NCBI GenBank assembly: GCA_015232315.1
Contig: JADFZZ010000006.1
Location: forward strand, 1 to 64,000
Direction: 5' to 3'
From: SAR324 cluster bacterium
Lineage (GTDB): Bacteria; SAR324; NAC60-12
DNA: 64,000 bases
Shown here: piece after piece, positions 22,808-50,422 of the stretch
How the letters are laid out: every line of letters starts with the position of its first letter
How positions within the stretch are numbered: the first letter of the stretch is position 1
The notes under the pieces: generated by a model
What the model saw: only the letters and a program-made list of their open reading frames with translations
Databases searched by the model: none
What the model was told of the DNA's origin: nothing
Translations under genes and position numbers: made by a program

Positions 22808-24750
22808 CAATGGATTCCGCCACCAGAATCAAAATTCTGCCTGAGCTCATCATCAACCAGATTGCCGCCGGGGAAGTTGTGGAACGCCCGGCATCCGTGG
22901 TGAAGGAACTGATTGATAATGCGCTTGACGCTCAGGCGGATCAAATCATGGTGACTGTTAAAAATGGCGGGAAAGATTATATTTCCATAGTGGATAATGG
23001 GATTGGCATGAATGAGGCTGATGCCCGGCTTTCCGTAGAACGGCATGCCACCAGCAAAATATATACGGAAAGTGATCTTGCCAAGATTCAGACCATGGGG
23101 TTTCGGGGAGAAGCTCTTGCCGCGATTTCTTCGGTTTCGCATTTTGAACTCATCACTTGCGAAGATGAACAGCAGGGTGGGATCAGGATGATGATCAAGG
23201 GCGGATATATGGAGCATATCGGTAAAACCGGATTTGCCAGAGGAACCAAAATCACGGTTCAGAATTTGTTTTATAACACACCTGCCCGTCTAAAATTTTT
23301 AAAAGCCACCACCACCGAATATCAACACATCCAGCAGATTCTGCTCAATGTTGCTCTGGCCCGGCCTTCCATCCAGTTTCGTCTCACACACAATCAGCAA
23401 TTGCAGATGAACACCAGTCGGGGACAAACACTGGATGAGAGAATTTATCAATTGTTCGGTGAAGAATTTCAGGATGGGCTGATTCCGGTTGACTATCAGG
23501 ATAACTATTTACGACTGCATGGTTTTGTTTCTTCGCCAACAGCCTGTCGTCAGACACGACGGTGGCAATATCTGTTTGTGAACAACAGGACCGTCAAATG
23601 TGTTTCCTTCACTCATGGAGTGTATGATGCCTACCAGCCCTTTCTCAGCAAAGGTCAGCATCCCGTTTTTTTTCTGAATCTTGAACTCGACCCGACAGAA
23701 ATTGATGTGAATGTGCATCCCGCCAAAACCGAGATCCGCTTTCGCAACAGCCAGCTTGTTCACACCATTATCGCCGACAAGCTTCGTGGATTCCTGAAGG
23801 ACGGAATGCACCGTCGCTTTTTTGCCCGGGACCGATCCTTCATTCCCCCCATGGAATCACGACAATTATCCATGCTAGACGAGGAACCTGAGCCAGAAGA
23901 TCTGGTGTTGACAGCACCTGAAAAAAAAACGACACGACAACATCCCTCTCCGAAAAAACAGGTGCGGGAATCTGATCTCAAAAATCAGGAACCTTCACCC
24001 GAAATACAGAAAGTCCCTGCTCCGTCAAAGCCTGAAACCATCGCCCTTGAAGAAACTGTTTCTGCCCCATCAAAACATGAAACCATCACCATTGAAGAAA
24101 CAGTTCCTTCCTCAAAAGATTTATCAGAAAATCAAGTGCGAAAACTGCTGGATGAGCATTATGCGATACGTCAACATTTCCGTGTTCTCGGACAGATGCG
24201 AAATCACTGGATTGTCGCAACGACGGACACATCGCTGGTGGTGATTGACCCTCATGCGGCTCATGAACGAATTATTTTTGAAAAGTTTCGCAATGATTTT
24301 TATAACAAAACCATTGAGATCCATTCTCAATCAATTCCTGCGCTGATAGAACTCAACTCCCAACATGCCATTTTGATGGATCAATATCTGCCCCAGTTTC
24401 AGAAATTGGGATTTCAAATTGAGCCTTTTGGCGGAAAGACCTTCTCCATCCATGCATTTCCCCTGATTTTACCTGAGTCAAGCATGCAGGCGAGCATTTT
24501 GTCCATCCTTGAGGAAGTGAGCTTTTTCGGCAAACGAAACCGGCCTGAAGAGATTCTGGAAACGGCCCTGAAGAACATTGCCTGCCATTCTGCGATTTCT
24601 CAACAACAACTTCCTGTTGAACGCATGGAAATTCTGCTGGATCAATTGTCACGGGTAGATTTTCAGATTTTCAGATTGCATGAACAGCCGATTTTAATTG
24701 AACTCCGTCAGGAAGAGTTGATGAAACGCTTTGAAAAGGAAGCTTTTTAA
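22804..24750 (+). CDS. mutL: DNA mismatch repair protein MutL
   Basis: The N-terminal GHKL ATPase is clear: NQIAAGEVVERPASVVKEL, then DNGIGM, MGFRGEALAAISS, GTKITVQNLFYNTPAR and the transducer NNRTVKCVSF. A linker at about 370-440 carries an internal duplication. The C-terminal dimerisation domain begins near residue 445 and contains DPHAAHERIIFE, the counterpart of the endonuclease metal motif DQHAxxExxxxE. The later ACHSAI is also kept. The motif usually written CPHGRP reads RLHEQP here, so one zinc-ligand cysteine is missing and nicking ability is uncertain. The first ATPase motif reads KELIDNALDA, a conservative E-to-D change with the catalytic glutamate kept. MutS is not in the window. 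Confidence 0.95.
   Translation: MTMDSATRIKILPELIINQIAAGEVVERPASVVKELIDNALDAQADQIMVTVKNGGKDYISIVDNGIGMNEADARLSVERHATSKIYTESDLAKIQTMGFRGEALAAISSVSHFELITCEDEQQGGIRMMIKGGYMEHIGKTGFARGTKITVQNLFYNTPARLKFLKATTTEYQHIQQILLNVALARPSIQFRLTHNQQLQMNTSRGQTLDERIYQLFGEEFQDGLIPVDYQDNYLRLHGFVSSPTACRQTRRWQYLFVNNRTVKCVSFTHGVYDAYQPFLSKGQHPVFFLNLELDPTEIDVNVHPAKTEIRFRNSQLVHTIIADKLRGFLKDGMHRRFFARDRSFIPPMESRQLSMLDEEPEPEDLVLTAPEKKTTRQHPSPKKQVRESDLKNQEPSPEIQKVPAPSKPETIALEETVSAPSKHETITIEETVPSSKDLSENQVRKLLDEHYAIRQHFRVLGQMRNHWIVATTDTSLVVIDPHAAHERIIFEKFRNDFYNKTIEIHSQSIPALIELNSQHAILMDQYLPQFQKLGFQIEPFGGKTFSIHAFPLILPESSMQASILSILEEVSFFGKRNRPEEILETALKNIACHSAISQQQLPVERMEILLDQLSRVDFQIFRLHEQPILIELRQEELMKRFEKEAF
24019..24108. repeat. 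45-bp in-frame duplication in the mutL linker
   Basis: Two adjacent 45-bp units encode APSKPETIALEETVS and APSKHETITIEETVP. They lie in the flexible linker between the ATPase and C-terminal domains. The substitutions between the copies suggest an old duplication. Confidence 0.75.
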
Positions 24751-31602: not shown

Positions 31603-34152
31603 ATGTTGCCAGAAAAAATATCACCCCGTATTTCATCTGAACTGGTACCTGAAGCAATAATATTTCGTACCAAGGGTATGATGCTTCGCAATCTGGCACG
31701 AAGAATCTACCAATTACTGACGGCGTACCCAACACCCGACGGCAATAATTTTCACCGAACGATCACCATCACGGAAAACAAACATCCCCAATACACCTTG
31801 GATCGTTTGTATAAATATCTTCATAATCTTTATTTTTTTTCGTCAGAAGAACAGGAAAACAGCGAAAATCGACTGATTGAAGAACATGGGCAACTTTATC
31901 TTCGATCTAAAACAGATCTTTGGAATGCACTTAAATTAATTGGTATTTCTCCTGATTTTTATGAAATCCCCCTGCATCTTCGCGAACACTCCAGTATCCA
32001 GATGCTGGAAGGTCTGGTCAAAGCTATTCCTGAATCCGGGATTCTATATAAAGATCGAGCAAATACGTCCCAACATTTCCGGGTTTCCATTCAAACGGAT
32101 TCATTTTATGGCAAGCATCCGGATGGCAGTGTGATGCCTGAATACATTCACTGCATTAAAATTCACAGAATTTCATGGCATAAAATGCGCTCCATAAAAA
32201 TCTGGGAATTGATTCCAAAGCAATGGACACGCCCCACCCCCGTTTGCCTGATCCATGGATTCATGTCCAATTATTACAGTTTTCATCTGGAAGGCAACAC
32301 CAGTATGGACTATGAGTTAGTCCGATCAGGAAGCCGGGTCTTTGTTCTCGATCATATCCGGGTGGATAATAACGCAAACCTGGATGTTTTTGCTGAATAT
32401 CTGGTGACCAGCATCGTTGATTTCGCCAGAGAAATCACAGGTTCGAGTCAGGTCATGCTTGCCGGTCACAGTATGGGCGGAATTTTATCAATCATCCAAA
32501 CCATTCTTGACACCATTCGGCAACCACGTTTTTTTACCGCGGTCAAAGCATTAATGATTATCAACTCCCCGTTAACCATGAAACGGGGTTACTGGATGCC
32601 CGGCAATGTGCTGAACTATATGCTGTTGCCCTTATCATTGCTGAGTCGGGATGGCACCCTGCCTTTCAAGGAGTTATCCCGATTAGCCAAATTTATTCCG
32701 TTCATTGAGTATCTGGCAACCGCTGATATTTCTCCGACCATCAAGCGTCTCAGCCGATTGATGGGTCTGAACAGTGATAAAGTTCTAGGACAATTTAACA
32801 CCTGGCACGAACGGCTCAACCCAATCAGCATTTCTCCTCAAATTCTGAAAACCAGTATGGAGCATGCCATCACAAACCCTCCGGAACCACTGCTTAGACA
32901 CTTTGCCAAGATCGTCGAAAACGAAATAGGCGTGACTTCCTATAATTATGAGCTGACCTCTGGTTTGGTCGATCAGGATTTTTCTCCTGAAGAAAAAAAA
33001 ATGATGGAGATGAAAACCAGGTATGCCCACATCAATTATACTGAAAATTATTACAGAATCCCGGCAACCATTCCACTCCTCGAAATCCATAACACCAATG
33101 ACCCACTGGCTAATCCTGATCAATTTAACAGTGTGTGGAATTTATGGCCTCAACTCCATAAATTAAAAATATCGCATACCCCCAGTGATGAACTGGATGA
33201 ACGACGTTGTATTGATCGCATGAATGAATGGTTCAACGAACATGGTCTGTCTTGTGTGATTGGACTTCATGTCACGGAAGGACGTCATATGGACTCCCTG
33301 GTTACAGAAAAAGGGATTATCAATGCGTTCGTAGACAAAATTGAGCAATGCTCCTGTACTCTGGCCGACAAAATCCGGCATGACATTGAAGCCCATGTGA
33401 AGTTTCGAAATTATGAAACACGTCCTGAAATCAAATTTATCGCGGAACGTGATTTTTCTAAAAAAATCCGTTTTCTGGAACAGTCTTTATTGAATGAACA
33501 GGAGCAGAAACAAGTCATTGACATGATGATTGAGTTGATAAGCACCTATGAACCTCATGCGAAAGTAGGAGAAAGCTTTCACAATTTCATGATCAGAAAT
33601 CCTTCAATGGAACAGAACAAAGAAATCCAGTACAATGTGCTTTACACCAGTGTTCGTAAAATTTTATCCATGGCAAAAGCCCCACTTGAACTAATGCATA
33701 AAATCAACAACAAAGTAATTTCAAGTGATCCGGTACCTGTTCCTGAGTGTTTCCGTTCTTTAATTGATTTGAGTTTGGGACTGTTCGATCAAATTCGAAA
33801 ACGTTCTCATGCGGGGCACATGGAATTCAGACCGGTTTTTGAAAATTTCTTAAATTTCTCGTTTGAGCAACCTCAGAAAGTTGTGAGCCTTCATGCGTTC
33901 CGCGCGTATCTGCATACTCGAGATCCGGAATTTATCAAAAAAGGTGGGGAGTTGCTCATGAATATCAAACAAGAATGGCAGGATCGCGCCCATCAGGTGT
34001 TCAGAGAAGAAATTGAGCATCAACTCAATGAATTAAAATACGCATCTATTCCGACCTTCACGAAAAACATCAAACCCCTCATGGATGTTTATCGACAACT
34101 TGAGGAACGTGTTCTTGATCAAACAGTAGATTATTCATCCATTATGAAATGA
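31603..34152 (+). CDS. Large alpha/beta hydrolase with long C-terminal helical extension
   Basis: 849 residues, far longer than the hydrolase core. The core lies at about 205-560: LIHGFMSNYYSF (oxyanion loop), nucleophile elbow AGHSMGG with Ser290, and a possible catalytic histidine in TEGRHMDS. An acid such as the Asp in EIHNTNDPL is a candidate. The N-terminal ~200 residues (bearing GMMLRNLARRIYQLL) and the C-terminal ~280 (helical, FDQIRKRSHAG) match nothing I know. The HGF.SN and GHSMGG spacing resembles lipase/polyester-type hydrolases. AGGAGA lies 7 bases before the ATG. The next gene starts 6 bases after the stop, so the two are almost certainly co-transcribed. Confidence 0.7.
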   Translation: MLPEKISPRISSELVPEAIIFRTKGMMLRNLARRIYQLLTAYPTPDGNNFHRTITITENKHPQYTLDRLYKYLHNLYFFSSEEQENSENRLIEEHGQLYLRSKTDLWNALKLIGISPDFYEIPLHLREHSSIQMLEGLVKAIPESGILYKDRANTSQHFRVSIQTDSFYGKHPDGSVMPEYIHCIKIHRISWHKMRSIKIWELIPKQWTRPTPVCLIHGFMSNYYSFHLEGNTSMDYELVRSGSRVFVLDHIRVDNNANLDVFAEYLVTSIVDFAREITGSSQVMLAGHSMGGILSIIQTILDTIRQPRFFTAVKALMIINSPLTMKRGYWMPGNVLNYMLLPLSLLSRDGTLPFKELSRLAKFIPFIEYLATADISPTIKRLSRLMGLNSDKVLGQFNTWHERLNPISISPQILKTSMEHAITNPPEPLLRHFAKIVENEIGVTSYNYELTSGLVDQDFSPEEKKMMEMKTRYAHINYTENYYRIPATIPLLEIHNTNDPLANPDQFNSVWNLWPQLHKLKISHTPSDELDERRCIDRMNEWFNEHGLSCVIGLHVTEGRHMDSLVTEKGIINAFVDKIEQCSCTLADKIRHDIEAHVKFRNYETRPEIKFIAERDFSKKIRFLEQSLLNEQEQKQVIDMMIELISTYEPHAKVGESFHNFMIRNPSMEQNKEIQYNVLYTSVRKILSMAKAPLELMHKINNKVISSDPVPVPECFRSLIDLSLGLFDQIRKRSHAGHMEFRPVFENFLNFSFEQPQKVVSLHAFRAYLHTRDPEFIKKGGELLMNIKQEWQDRAHQVFREEIEHQLNELKYASIPTFTKNIKPLMDVYRQLEERVLDQTVDYSSIMK

Positions 34153-34158
34153 TGTGAT

Positions 34159-35184
34159 ATGAATGCCTCCAGCATACCAACGCTCGAACAATATTTTCGT
34201 ACTTTTTATCGAGGTGATCCAGACCTGGGATACCATAATGTTGCCCAATATCTGATTGATCTGGACACATCTCAGCAGTATTACGATCAGCATTATCTGA
34301 TTCAACCAGAACATGAAGAAGAATTCCAACGAATCATCCGGATCATTTCAGGAGCGTTGTATTCACCGACAAACCATGAAAATTCCATTTTCCGGGAGTA
34401 TGTCGTGGATGATGTCTGTGTCATGGTGGAAGGCAGTACTCGTCCTATCCGAATTAGGATGAAACATCCGGACCTGCCTGATGAACAGGGCTTTGAACGA
34501 GTGTTTTATATCAAAAAAAATTCAGATTTTAATCCACGGCTCATTTGCTCATATCTCTACCATCTTTTTTCCAAAAATCCTTTGGGCCTCTGGGTCAACA
34601 ATAAAATGATTGTAACCAGCGAAGCCAAGGGGACGATCGGGAGCCGATTGCCACCGGGTCGACTGGATTATCTGATGCACCAGCGTCAATTTCTCAGGGA
34701 AGTGATTCGGATCAATGTGAGTGTCAATCTCATGATGATCGCTGATATGTTTCCCAAAAACTATGTGATTCGCCAGGTTTTGAACAAACAGCATTGGCCG
34801 ACCTGGCAGATCGTTCCCATTGATTTTGACCATGCTTTTCTTCCGGAAAACCTGGATGAACCCCGATTGATCATTCCTGATCCATCTAAACCCCTAGTGC
34901 CAGAAAACAATTTGCTGGACACCATTATTCCTGAATTTTACTCTCAAGCGGCAATCCGGGTTATTGTCAGAGAAGAAGAAGAACGTCTCGCTGCGATTTA
35001 TTTAGTGTATTATGATCAATTGAATCTCCTGTTTGAAATTTTGAAAGGAAGAAAATATTCGCGGTCAATATTTCGCTCACTGAGTGAGGAGTTTGTGCAA
35101 AAATATAAATTTGGTGTGGTTTCCAATTACCTGGGAGACCTGCTGAAAAATTCTTTCGATTATCTTGTCAAAAAATTAAACTAA
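34159..35184 (+). CDS. Uncharacterised protein with possible kinase-like fold
   Basis: 341 residues with a kinase-like order of motifs. A lysine in RVFYIKKNSDF may be the ATP-anchoring residue. MMIADMFPKNYVIRQ resembles a D-x4-N catalytic loop, and WQIVPIDFDHAF 16 residues later resembles the metal-binding IDFxHAF of PI3K/HipA-like kinases. The spacing fits, but there is no glycine-rich loop I can identify and the resemblance is by eye. It follows the 849-residue hydrolase by 6 bases. It could be a phosphotransferase acting on the hydrolase's product or a pseudokinase. The C-terminal ~100 residues are helical. Confidence 0.5.
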   Translation: MNASSIPTLEQYFRTFYRGDPDLGYHNVAQYLIDLDTSQQYYDQHYLIQPEHEEEFQRIIRIISGALYSPTNHENSIFREYVVDDVCVMVEGSTRPIRIRMKHPDLPDEQGFERVFYIKKNSDFNPRLICSYLYHLFSKNPLGLWVNNKMIVTSEAKGTIGSRLPPGRLDYLMHQRQFLREVIRINVSVNLMMIADMFPKNYVIRQVLNKQHWPTWQIVPIDFDHAFLPENLDEPRLIIPDPSKPLVPENNLLDTIIPEFYSQAAIRVIVREEEERLAAIYLVYYDQLNLLFEILKGRKYSRSIFRSLSEEFVQKYKFGVVSNYLGDLLKNSFDYLVKKLN

Positions 35185-47665: not shown

Positions 47666-50422
47666 ATGCCTCGTTTATTTGCTATTGATTCCATGGCCAT
47701 TTTGTATCGCAGTTATTTTGCGATGATCAGGTCTCCGCTGATCAATTCAAAAGGACTCAATACCAGTGGTGTCTTTGGATTTTTGACACAAATCATCAAA
47801 GTGATTGAAGAGGAATCCCCTGATTATCTGGCAGTCGTTTCTGATTCGATTGAGCCCACATTCAGGCATCAGCGTTTTCCTCAATACAAAGCAACCCGAG
47901 AAAAAATGCCTGAAGATCTGGTCACACAACTGCCCTATCTTTCCCGTCTGGTTCATGCGCTGAACCTTCCTTATCTGATCATGCCCGGTTATGAAGCCGA
48001 TGACATCATCGGTACCCTGATGCGAGTGTGCGATGAACACGATATCGAAGGCATTATGGTGACCAGTGATAAAGATTATATGCAACTGATCTCTGATAAA
48101 CGAATCATGTTGAACCATAAACAGGAAAAAATCAGAGCGCCACAAGTCCGTGAAAAATTTGGCTGTGCCCCCCATCAGGTGATTGAGGTCCTTGGACTCA
48201 TGGGTGACAGTTCAGACAATGTTCCAGGCGTGCGAGGCATCGGTGAAAAAACCGCGATCAAGCTCATTCAGGACTATGGAAGCATTGATAATATTTACAA
48301 AAATCTGGAAACAATTCAGGGAGCCAAGCTTCGTGAAAATCTGGAAAACGGCAGAGAGCTGGCTTTTCTTTCCAGAGAACTGGTAACAATCCATTGTGAA
48401 GTCCCGATAGCGTTGGATTTGGAGTCATTGCATCTTGATAAGACACGACTTCACAACAACCCTGAATTTCATGAAATTCTAAAGGAACTTGAATTCAAAT
48501 CATTCATTAAACGGTTTTCGGTCGTTCCATCATCCACCGCTGACGCCCCCCCCCCCAACAAGCCCCCCGCAGAGACGCTTCAGCGTTCGGAACAGTCTGA
48601 ATCGTCGCCCGCCATTGAACACGACACTATCTGTCATTGCGTAAAAAAAATTGAAACCTGGAACCAGGTCGCAAAAAACATTCGACAGACAAAAATGTTC
48701 AGTTTCAATGTTTGGCCTGTGGGAACCGTTCCTATGAAAAATGATCAAATTGAAGGTATCGCGGTCAGTTACGACTCCAATGAAGTTTGGTATCTGGATT
48801 CAGAGTTGATTCAATCATCATACTCCAAAGTGATGTCTGTTTTTAAAGATCTGATGGAAGATCCTGCTATCACCAAGACAGGATTCGATTTGAAAGAGCG
48901 ATTCCACCTGTTGATGGAATCAAATATTGTTCCCCAAGCCCCATTTTTTGATGTGATTGTGGCAAACCACCTGTTGGAACCTGTTTCCAAAAAACAGAAT
49001 ACGCTGGAATATCTGATTGAAAGCAGATTGTGCTGGAAAACAGGCCAGATTTCTCGAAAACAACCCGAAATGCAACTGTCTTTACTGCCTGATGAAGCAC
49101 CCGAAATTGATATGCATTGCAGAAATATTGATGGCGCTCGTGACTTATTTGTTTTACTGCGGGAACAATTGATTCAGTCTGGTATGTGGGATTCATTTCA
49201 GACCGTTGAAATGCCTCTACTTTCTGTTCTGGTAGAGATTGAGCACAATGGCGTATCCATTGACACTTCACAATTGTCTGCAATTTCAATCGAGTTTGAA
49301 GAACGTTTAGAACAAATTTCCGCACAGGTTTTTCACCTTGCAGGAGAATCATTTAACATCAACTCTGTTCCTGATTTGCAGAAAATTCTGTATGAAAAAA
49401 TGAATCTGCATCAAATATGCGGAATACGTCCCAGAAAAATCAAAATCGGAAATCAAATGTCAACCGATGAAGAAACTCTGGAAAAAATGCTGGAGCATCC
49501 CTTACCCCAAAAGATTCTGGAATATCGGGAACTGAACAAACTAAAGAATACATACATTGATCAATTGCCAACCTTTGTGAACAAGACAACAGGCCAAATT
49601 CATGCGTCCTTTCATCAAACGGTCACAGCGACCGGGCGCCTGTCTTCAGAAAACCCCAATTTACAGAACATTCCTGTCAGAACCATTGAAGGGCGCAGAA
49701 TCCGCAAAGTATTCATCCCGTCTTCAGCCGAAAAAATTCTTATTTCAGCCGATTACAGTCAGATTGAATTGCGTATCGTTGCCCATTACTCTAAAGATCC
49801 CACTTTTTTAAAGGCTTATCGGGAAAATCAGGATATTCATGCGTTGACAGCCTCTGCTATTTTTAATGTTCCGATTGAAGATGTTTCCCGTGAGATGCGT
49901 TCCAGAGCCAAGGAAGTAAATTTTGGACTGATTTATCGTATGGGCCCTGAACGCCTTTCTGTCGTTACTCAGACTTCCAAATCGCAGGCAAAAGAATTTA
50001 TTGAAAAATTTTTTCTTCGTTATCAGACAATCCATGCCTTACAGGAACAATTCATGGAACAGGCCAGAAAAGAAGGCTATAGTCTGACTTTGATGGGACG
50101 TCGCCGATATCTTCCTGAAATCAACGGAAAGGGACTTGCCAGAAGTCTTGCGGAAGGCGCGGCTGTCAATACTCCGATCCAGGGATCTGCCGCTGAAATA
50201 ATAAAACTGGCCATGATTCGGATTCATGAACGTATTAAAAAACTGAAAATGCGTTCCAAAATGATTTTGACAGTTCATGATGAACTCGTATTTGACGCAT
50301 TTGAAGATGAAGAATCACAACTAACCCAAGTGATAAAAGAAAATATGGAAAACGTAGTCACACTGGAAGTACCACTCGTGGTTGAGGTCGGAAGAGCGCA
50401 TAATTGGCTTGAAGCCCATTGA
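47666..50422 (+). CDS. polA: DNA polymerase I with degenerate proofreading domain
   Basis: 918 residues. The N-terminal 5' nuclease (1-285) has IDSMAILYRSYFA, KATREKMPEDL, EADDIIGTL, TSDKDYMQL and DNVPGVRGIGEKTA. A Pro/Ser linker at ~290-315 includes an 11-cytosine tract. The central exonuclease-like domain lacks motif I: FSFNVWPVG stands where FDTETD is normal, so 3'-5' proofreading is probably lost, as in Taq polymerase. Polymerase motifs A (SADYSQIELRIVAH), B (RSRAKEVNFGLIYRMG) and C (TVHDELVFD) are good; motif B ends YRMG rather than YGMS. Acts in Okazaki-fragment processing and repair. The 229 bases upstream hold only a weak TTGACT/TACTTT promoter candidate. Confidence 0.95.
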   Translation: MPRLFAIDSMAILYRSYFAMIRSPLINSKGLNTSGVFGFLTQIIKVIEEESPDYLAVVSDSIEPTFRHQRFPQYKATREKMPEDLVTQLPYLSRLVHALNLPYLIMPGYEADDIIGTLMRVCDEHDIEGIMVTSDKDYMQLISDKRIMLNHKQEKIRAPQVREKFGCAPHQVIEVLGLMGDSSDNVPGVRGIGEKTAIKLIQDYGSIDNIYKNLETIQGAKLRENLENGRELAFLSRELVTIHCEVPIALDLESLHLDKTRLHNNPEFHEILKELEFKSFIKRFSVVPSSTADAPPPNKPPAETLQRSEQSESSPAIEHDTICHCVKKIETWNQVAKNIRQTKMFSFNVWPVGTVPMKNDQIEGIAVSYDSNEVWYLDSELIQSSYSKVMSVFKDLMEDPAITKTGFDLKERFHLLMESNIVPQAPFFDVIVANHLLEPVSKKQNTLEYLIESRLCWKTGQISRKQPEMQLSLLPDEAPEIDMHCRNIDGARDLFVLLREQLIQSGMWDSFQTVEMPLLSVLVEIEHNGVSIDTSQLSAISIEFEERLEQISAQVFHLAGESFNINSVPDLQKILYEKMNLHQICGIRPRKIKIGNQMSTDEETLEKMLEHPLPQKILEYRELNKLKNTYIDQLPTFVNKTTGQIHASFHQTVTATGRLSSENPNLQNIPVRTIEGRRIRKVFIPSSAEKILISADYSQIELRIVAHYSKDPTFLKAYRENQDIHALTASAIFNVPIEDVSREMRSRAKEVNFGLIYRMGPERLSVVTQTSKSQAKEFIEKFFLRYQTIHALQEQFMEQARKEGYSLTLMGRRRYLPEINGKGLARSLAEGAAVNTPIQGSAAEIIKLAMIRIHERIKKLKMRSKMILTVHDELVFDAFEDEESQLTQVIKENMENVVTLEVPLVVEVGRAHNWLEAH
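48546..48556 (+). repeat. 11-cytosine homopolymer tract in polA
   Basis: An uninterrupted run of 11 C, followed within 6 bases by a run of six C, encodes PPP and PP in the linker between nuclease and exonuclease-like domains. A one-base gain would meet TGA at 48598; a one-base loss would meet TAA at 48642. Either slip would leave the ~290-residue 5' nuclease alone. Confidence 0.85.

Follow-up and report, generated by a model that had tools for sequence, protein, structure and literature searches.

The polA gene and its C11 tract

The window analysed here, a 64,000-nucleotide stretch of a SAR324 cluster bacterium contig, contains a single intact reading frame for DNA polymerase I, and polA is present in only one copy in this genome (one match). 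The 5_3_exonuc_N, 5_3_exonuc and DNA_pol_A domains all score above the Pfam cut-offs in the 918-residue product, such that an N-terminal 5' nuclease and a C-terminal family A polymerase domain lie in one chain, as in PolA proteins generally; the top PDB sequence matches are Taq polymerase, another DNA polymerase I and the Klenow fragment. The domains are joined by a linker that is distinctly GC-rich (60.5%, vs 42.4% for the whole gene), and it is here that a run of eleven C residues is found. The features of the locus are as follows.

47666-50422, + strand: polA, DNA polymerase I, 918 aa, frame intact (open reading frame, Pfam, PDB sequence matches)
47675-48442, + strand: 5' nuclease domains, residues 4-259 (Pfam PF02739 and PF01367)
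48512-48640, + strand: proline-rich inter-domain linker, approximately residues 283-325, limits set by eye (alignment with relatives, GC)
48546-48556, + strand: C11 run, GCC CCC CCC CCC (sequence, genome-wide count, frame arithmetic)
48563-48568, + strand: C6 run, six bases 3' of C11 (sequence)
48598-48600, + strand: TGA reached after gain of one C (frame arithmetic)
48642-48644, + strand: TAA reached after loss of one C (frame arithmetic)
48643-48650, + strand: A8 run at about codons 326-328, a second possible slippery site (sequence)
49271-50413, + strand: DNA polymerase family A domain, residues 536-916 (Pfam PF00476)

In proofreading members of PolA the DxE motif constitutes 3'-5' exonuclease motif I. 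At this position the present protein has FNVW, and an exonuclease-fold Pfam match between the nuclease and polymerase domains is sub-threshold (24.3 vs 27 bits). DxE is absent from 11 of the 15 PolA sequences aligned (this one and ten others) and is retained in four of family f2. There are many PolA proteins without DxE, and its absence does not exclude membership; from the alignment, the missing proofreading motif appears to be a family trait unrelated to the C11 tract.

The tract comprises the final two bases of codon 294 together with codons 295-297, and the in-frame sequence GCC CCC CCC CCC AAC encodes A-P-P-P-N. An earlier sequence-only reading had placed the run in the linker after the 5' nuclease and had predicted where each one-base change would terminate translation; the position is confirmed by the sequence and the Pfam boundaries, and both stops are right. 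A C12 tract yields a product of 311 aa that ends at 48598, and C10 one of 325 aa that ends at 48642, while C8, C11 and C14 are all in frame. The predicted truncated products are ∼35 kDa (C12) and ∼36 kDa (C10), at 0.112 kDa per residue, and not the ∼33 kDa fragment that had been claimed. Early stops after a frameshift at the tract are unremarkable for polA, in whose shifted frames the median distances to a stop are 13 and 7 codons.

Several other elements near the tract were considered and set aside. The A8 run cannot compensate the frame, as the gain frame ends upstream of it and the loss frame ends at its first two bases. Reinitiation to give a separate Klenow part would have to use ATG 48695, the first in-frame start after the tract; no Shine-Dalgarno-like sequence was seen by eye within the 20 bases upstream. 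Between 47400 and 50700 there are four promoter-like sites (shuffle mean 7.1) and four terminator-like sites (shuffle mean 2.8, sd 1.5). Together the C11 and C6 runs make up the window's sole G-quadruplex-like motif (- strand, 48546-48568), and a 360 kb genome sample contains none. We have set aside a role for this structure because the motif follows from the two runs themselves, but its solitary occurrence does speak against the plain ordinariness of the local sequence.

Long C/G runs in the genome

The genome (G000; 5,251,075 bases in 88 contigs) contains just one C11, which is the longest C/G run in its 5.25 Mb. There are 49 overlapping C8 matches, representing 36 runs, of which 27, 6, 2 and 1 have lengths of 8, 9, 10 and 11 respectively. 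These 36 runs in 5.25 Mb do not amount to the over-representation of tracts that characterizes genomes with contingency loci. Within the window the run in polA is the only one of C8 or longer; it accounts for four overlapping C8 matches, against an average of 1.56 in shuffled sequence, where 8 of 100 shuffles reach four.

A geometric tail fitted to the run lengths predicts 0.67 runs of at least 11, or 0.38 when the focal run is left out of the fit. Synonymous shuffling of 222 open reading frames of at least 200 codons (321 kb, window included; 200 shuffles) gives 0.055 runs of at least 11 per shuffle, with 11 of the 200 shuffles having one, which scales to ∼0.7 for the genome. Coding C/G runs are scarcer than in the synonymous shuffles, both for runs of at least 7 (8 observed vs a mean of 15.0) and for those of at least 8 (one, the focal run, vs a mean of 3.7); the genome therefore avoids such runs and does not use them. 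When the Ala and Pro codons of polA alone are reshuffled, C11 or longer arises in 423 of 20,000 trials. The tract is thus rare for a single gene (∼2%), yet about one per genome is expected, and its occurrence in polA in particular has a post-hoc probability of ∼2%.

CCC accounts for 26.7% of Pro codons, and for 18 of the 45 in polA. Among the 25 of the 36 runs of at least 8 that were examined, 20 are inside open reading frames of at least 100 codons, and long C/G runs thus occur in ordinary genes; apart from the C11 tract, no run of at least 10 was seen within a gene, both C10 runs being intergenic. A check for frame breaks at other C/G runs, covering the same number (25 of 36), revealed only doubtful instances (L055, L056, L093 and L094), located close to the start of a gene, directly behind a stop codon, or between genes.

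Two loci with long C/G runs have features of their own. At L094 (1497-1510; contig 48 of G000) a G10 run on the coding strand ends four bases before the ATG of a 319-aa open reading frame, whose product by eye resembles a secreted binding protein; changes in its length could alter the efficiency of translation starts. At L035 (contig 2 of G000) two C8 runs, at 1501-1508 and 2365-2372, lie in one 554-aa open reading frame and both encode PPLAEQKRIVA, a repeat that we presume to resemble those of type I restriction specificity subunits.

polA in relatives and the state of mismatch repair

A search of 58 genomes, this one included, gave polA matches in 51, none of them of the same genus, with the nearest relatives at 59-60% identity. 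The gene was read in 29 of the 50 matching relatives (22 from its own family, 4 from the order and 3 from the class), including, directly for the tract, all 22 same-family loci available. C and G runs in these 29 polA genes reach at most 6, and PPP occurs nowhere in their products; no stop codon was seen inside the long polA matches. The linker is conserved neither in sequence nor in length among the aligned PolA proteins, and it is longer here than in the closest relatives by alignment (L003, L004, L009 and L012). Runs of C10 or longer are present in 16 of the 31 family genomes and, among the matches listed, none is at another polA. Nine polA loci of Anaerostipes and other Lachnospiraceae (35-44% identity) were discarded as too distant for a comparison of tract length.

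Absence of the tract in close relatives had been named beforehand as one of the outcomes that would refute a switch, and this is borne out as far as the genomes reach: the tract is absent in 29 of 29, these being relatives at the family, order and class levels with none of the same genus. Contingency tracts that are kept in orthologues have no parallel in these genes (0 of 29), and neither does the conserved shift site of programmed +1 frameshifting, there being no PPP at which it could lie in any of the 29.

Some of the relatives have other peculiarities in polA. In the sister genus g7, 10 of the 12 genes read (L005-L008, L011, L013, L014, L016, L019 and L031) carry A7 or A8 at codons 285-286, immediately downstream of the 5' nuclease domain, with one of the remainder having A6 and the other none. 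The run arises because a Lys-Lys pair is conserved there, and these A runs are better candidates for RNA polymerase slippage than are C runs. Three genomes assigned to another family of the class (G049, G050 and G051; loci L020, L026 and L015) have two polA genes each, with 54-56% and 35-37% identity to the one described here, which may reflect transfer or bin contamination (contamination is 4-7%).

Weak mismatch repair commonly accompanies contingency loci, although they do not require it, and on this point the assembly gives a mixed picture. The mutL frame is open over 651 codons, and 24187-24606 of the window encodes its C-terminal domain. A MutS_V match is present in 27 of the 31 family genomes and is missing here, in a genome 95% complete, and in three genomes of 51-57% completeness. 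On contig 40 MutS_I is split over two frames:

L103, 2568-4297 (contig 40 of G000, 32568-34297): mutS, frame change within the N-terminal MutS_I, followed by 579 N

The run of N may explain why no MutS_V match was obtained. Open mutS frames of 919-925 codons occur in three relatives, and the gene looks broken in this assembly, which points to a mutator genome or else to a fault of the assembly. A true defect would lower the stability of the C11 run. Campylobacter is without mismatch repair, and its poly-G/C loci are reported to change at rates of 4.2e-4 to 4.1e-3 (PMC4235727).

Slippage and the origin of the tract

Replication slippage at C11 is plausible, as noise. Runs of more than seven G are classed as hypermutable in bacteria with contingency loci, according to a review (PMC4235727), and by that length class the in-frame C11 is of hypermutable length. 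Because of this, and because mutS looks broken, real instability is possible, and the tract probably ranks with the more mutable sites of the genome. The earlier claim that the tract mutates readily thus has some backing, but its companion, that the tract slips in transcription, runs counter to published data on C runs. In a study of E. coli and Buchnera, A or T runs accounted for 100% of homopolymer-run insertions, from which its authors concluded that G and C runs are not slippage-prone for RNA polymerase (PMC5574713); the coding runs there reached just 9 and 11 nt, from which we infer that long C runs were hardly present.

We consider it very probable that C11 arose incidentally in a linker rich in proline and under weak constraint, with no evolved switch needed. 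A chance origin is suggested because the smooth run-length distribution of the genome predicts 0.4-0.7 runs of at least 11, because the linker is unconserved and no C/G run over 6 or PPP occurs in the 29 relatives' polA, and because CCC is a common Pro codon and long runs occur in ordinary genes. Against it speak the rank of the tract as the longest C/G run of the genome and the only one of at least 10 seen in a gene, its ∼2% chance within polA alone, and the possible instability just described. In such a scheme A-P-P-P would just happen to be encoded by GCC and three CCC codons, and the normal product would be full-length DNA polymerase I, as the intact assembled frame indicates. Slippage during replication, when it occasionally happened, would leave some cells with the 5' nuclease alone and without the polymerase; such cells would be purged or tolerated, not exploited; changes of three C, computed to stay in frame, would alter linker length alone, presumably without harm.

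A contingency locus, in which slipped-strand replication toggles the Klenow part off and on while the 5' nuclease stays, giving a subpopulation with altered repair and mutation, strikes us as very unlikely. The frame logic is right, polA is single-copy, mutS appears damaged, and a nuclease-only PolA need not be lethal: such H. pylori strains live and have fewer mutations (PMC3121766). H. pylori DNA polymerase I is, as here, a PolA without the 3'-5' proofreading motif, and the same source indicates that its 5' nuclease suffices for viability when the polymerase part is missing; unlike here, that truncation was made in the laboratory, with no C run involved. The locus also resembles the poly-G/poly-C contingency loci of Campylobacter, Neisseria and Helicobacter in having a long in-frame C/G run at which a one-base change truncates the product, but it differs from them in being the single run of such length in its genome, in lying in a housekeeping repair gene, and in being unconserved. 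Most known phase-variable genes are surface-exposed, as reported in PMC3711429, and the assembled state of polA is ON. With the tract missing from all 29 relatives read and C/G runs not enriched in the genome, the functional switch or product pair proposed from the sequence is not supported.

Ribosomal +1 slippage at CCC-C is similarly improbable as an explanation of the tract, although rare shifts of this kind are plausible. Here some ribosomes would end at TAA 48642, producing a 325-aa nuclease beside the full protein, and more of it at low tRNA m1G37 methylation. Three CCC codons lie in the tract, two of them with C next, and CCC-C is slippery for tRNAPro: in E. coli shifting reaches as much as 1% at the second codon, and it increases ∼8-fold without m1G37 (PMC4519876); however, the 1% figure refers to the most shift-prone position, beside the start codon. 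The site is unconserved in relatives, and the only putative stimulator is an imperfect, weak inverted repeat at 48651-48674, downstream of the tract, which remains a candidate; any such shifting would be low-level noise and no programme. While the arrangement recalls dnaX-type programmed transcriptional or ribosomal frameshifting, in that a slippery sequence between domains could yield short and long products of a polymerase gene, it differs in having a C run instead of an A run, in being unconserved in relatives, and in that its stimulator is putative.

The possibility that the feature is the PPP motif and not the DNA run, with a polyproline pause giving the nuclease domain time to fold ahead of Klenow synthesis, also seems to us slight. 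PPP begins 36 residues past the Pfam nuclease domain, and in E. coli polyproline motifs are reported to be depleted in domains, not linkers, and enriched near domain boundaries (PMC5811046), but the motif is absent from the relatives' polA in 29 of 29 cases and is not rare in the genome, with 22 occurrences in 242 open reading frames. We regard as highly unlikely a self-referring mutability switch, in which C11, in a lineage with impaired MutS, toggles the proofreading-less polymerase half while all cells keep the 5' nuclease, such that polA sets the mutation and repair of a subpopulation. RNA polymerase slippage at the C run, giving a mixed mRNA pool and a product pair, is extremely unlikely: homopolymer insertions do increase with run length (PMC5574713) and eleven identical bases are present, but the E. 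coli and Buchnera insertions were all in A or T, programmed transcriptional slippage has an A/T homopolymer at its shift site where this is a C run, and the nearby A8 is a likelier site, albeit an unremarkable one (424 kb contain 99 A/T runs of at least 8).

Evolved phase variation or programmed slippage at C11 is thus not supported, and a tract without an evolved role is most likely. A mutable homopolymer in a linker is an already familiar kind of sequence, and we claim no membership in a regulated class. We found no homopolymer switch in polA described in a non-exhaustive search of the literature; a true switch would subject a core repair polymerase to phase variation, for which the same search likewise found no description. 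As a probable incidental product of its linker, the tract illustrates that a homopolymer arising by chance in a flexible segment can mimic a switch, and it provides one named site in this genome where read-level length variation can be sought.
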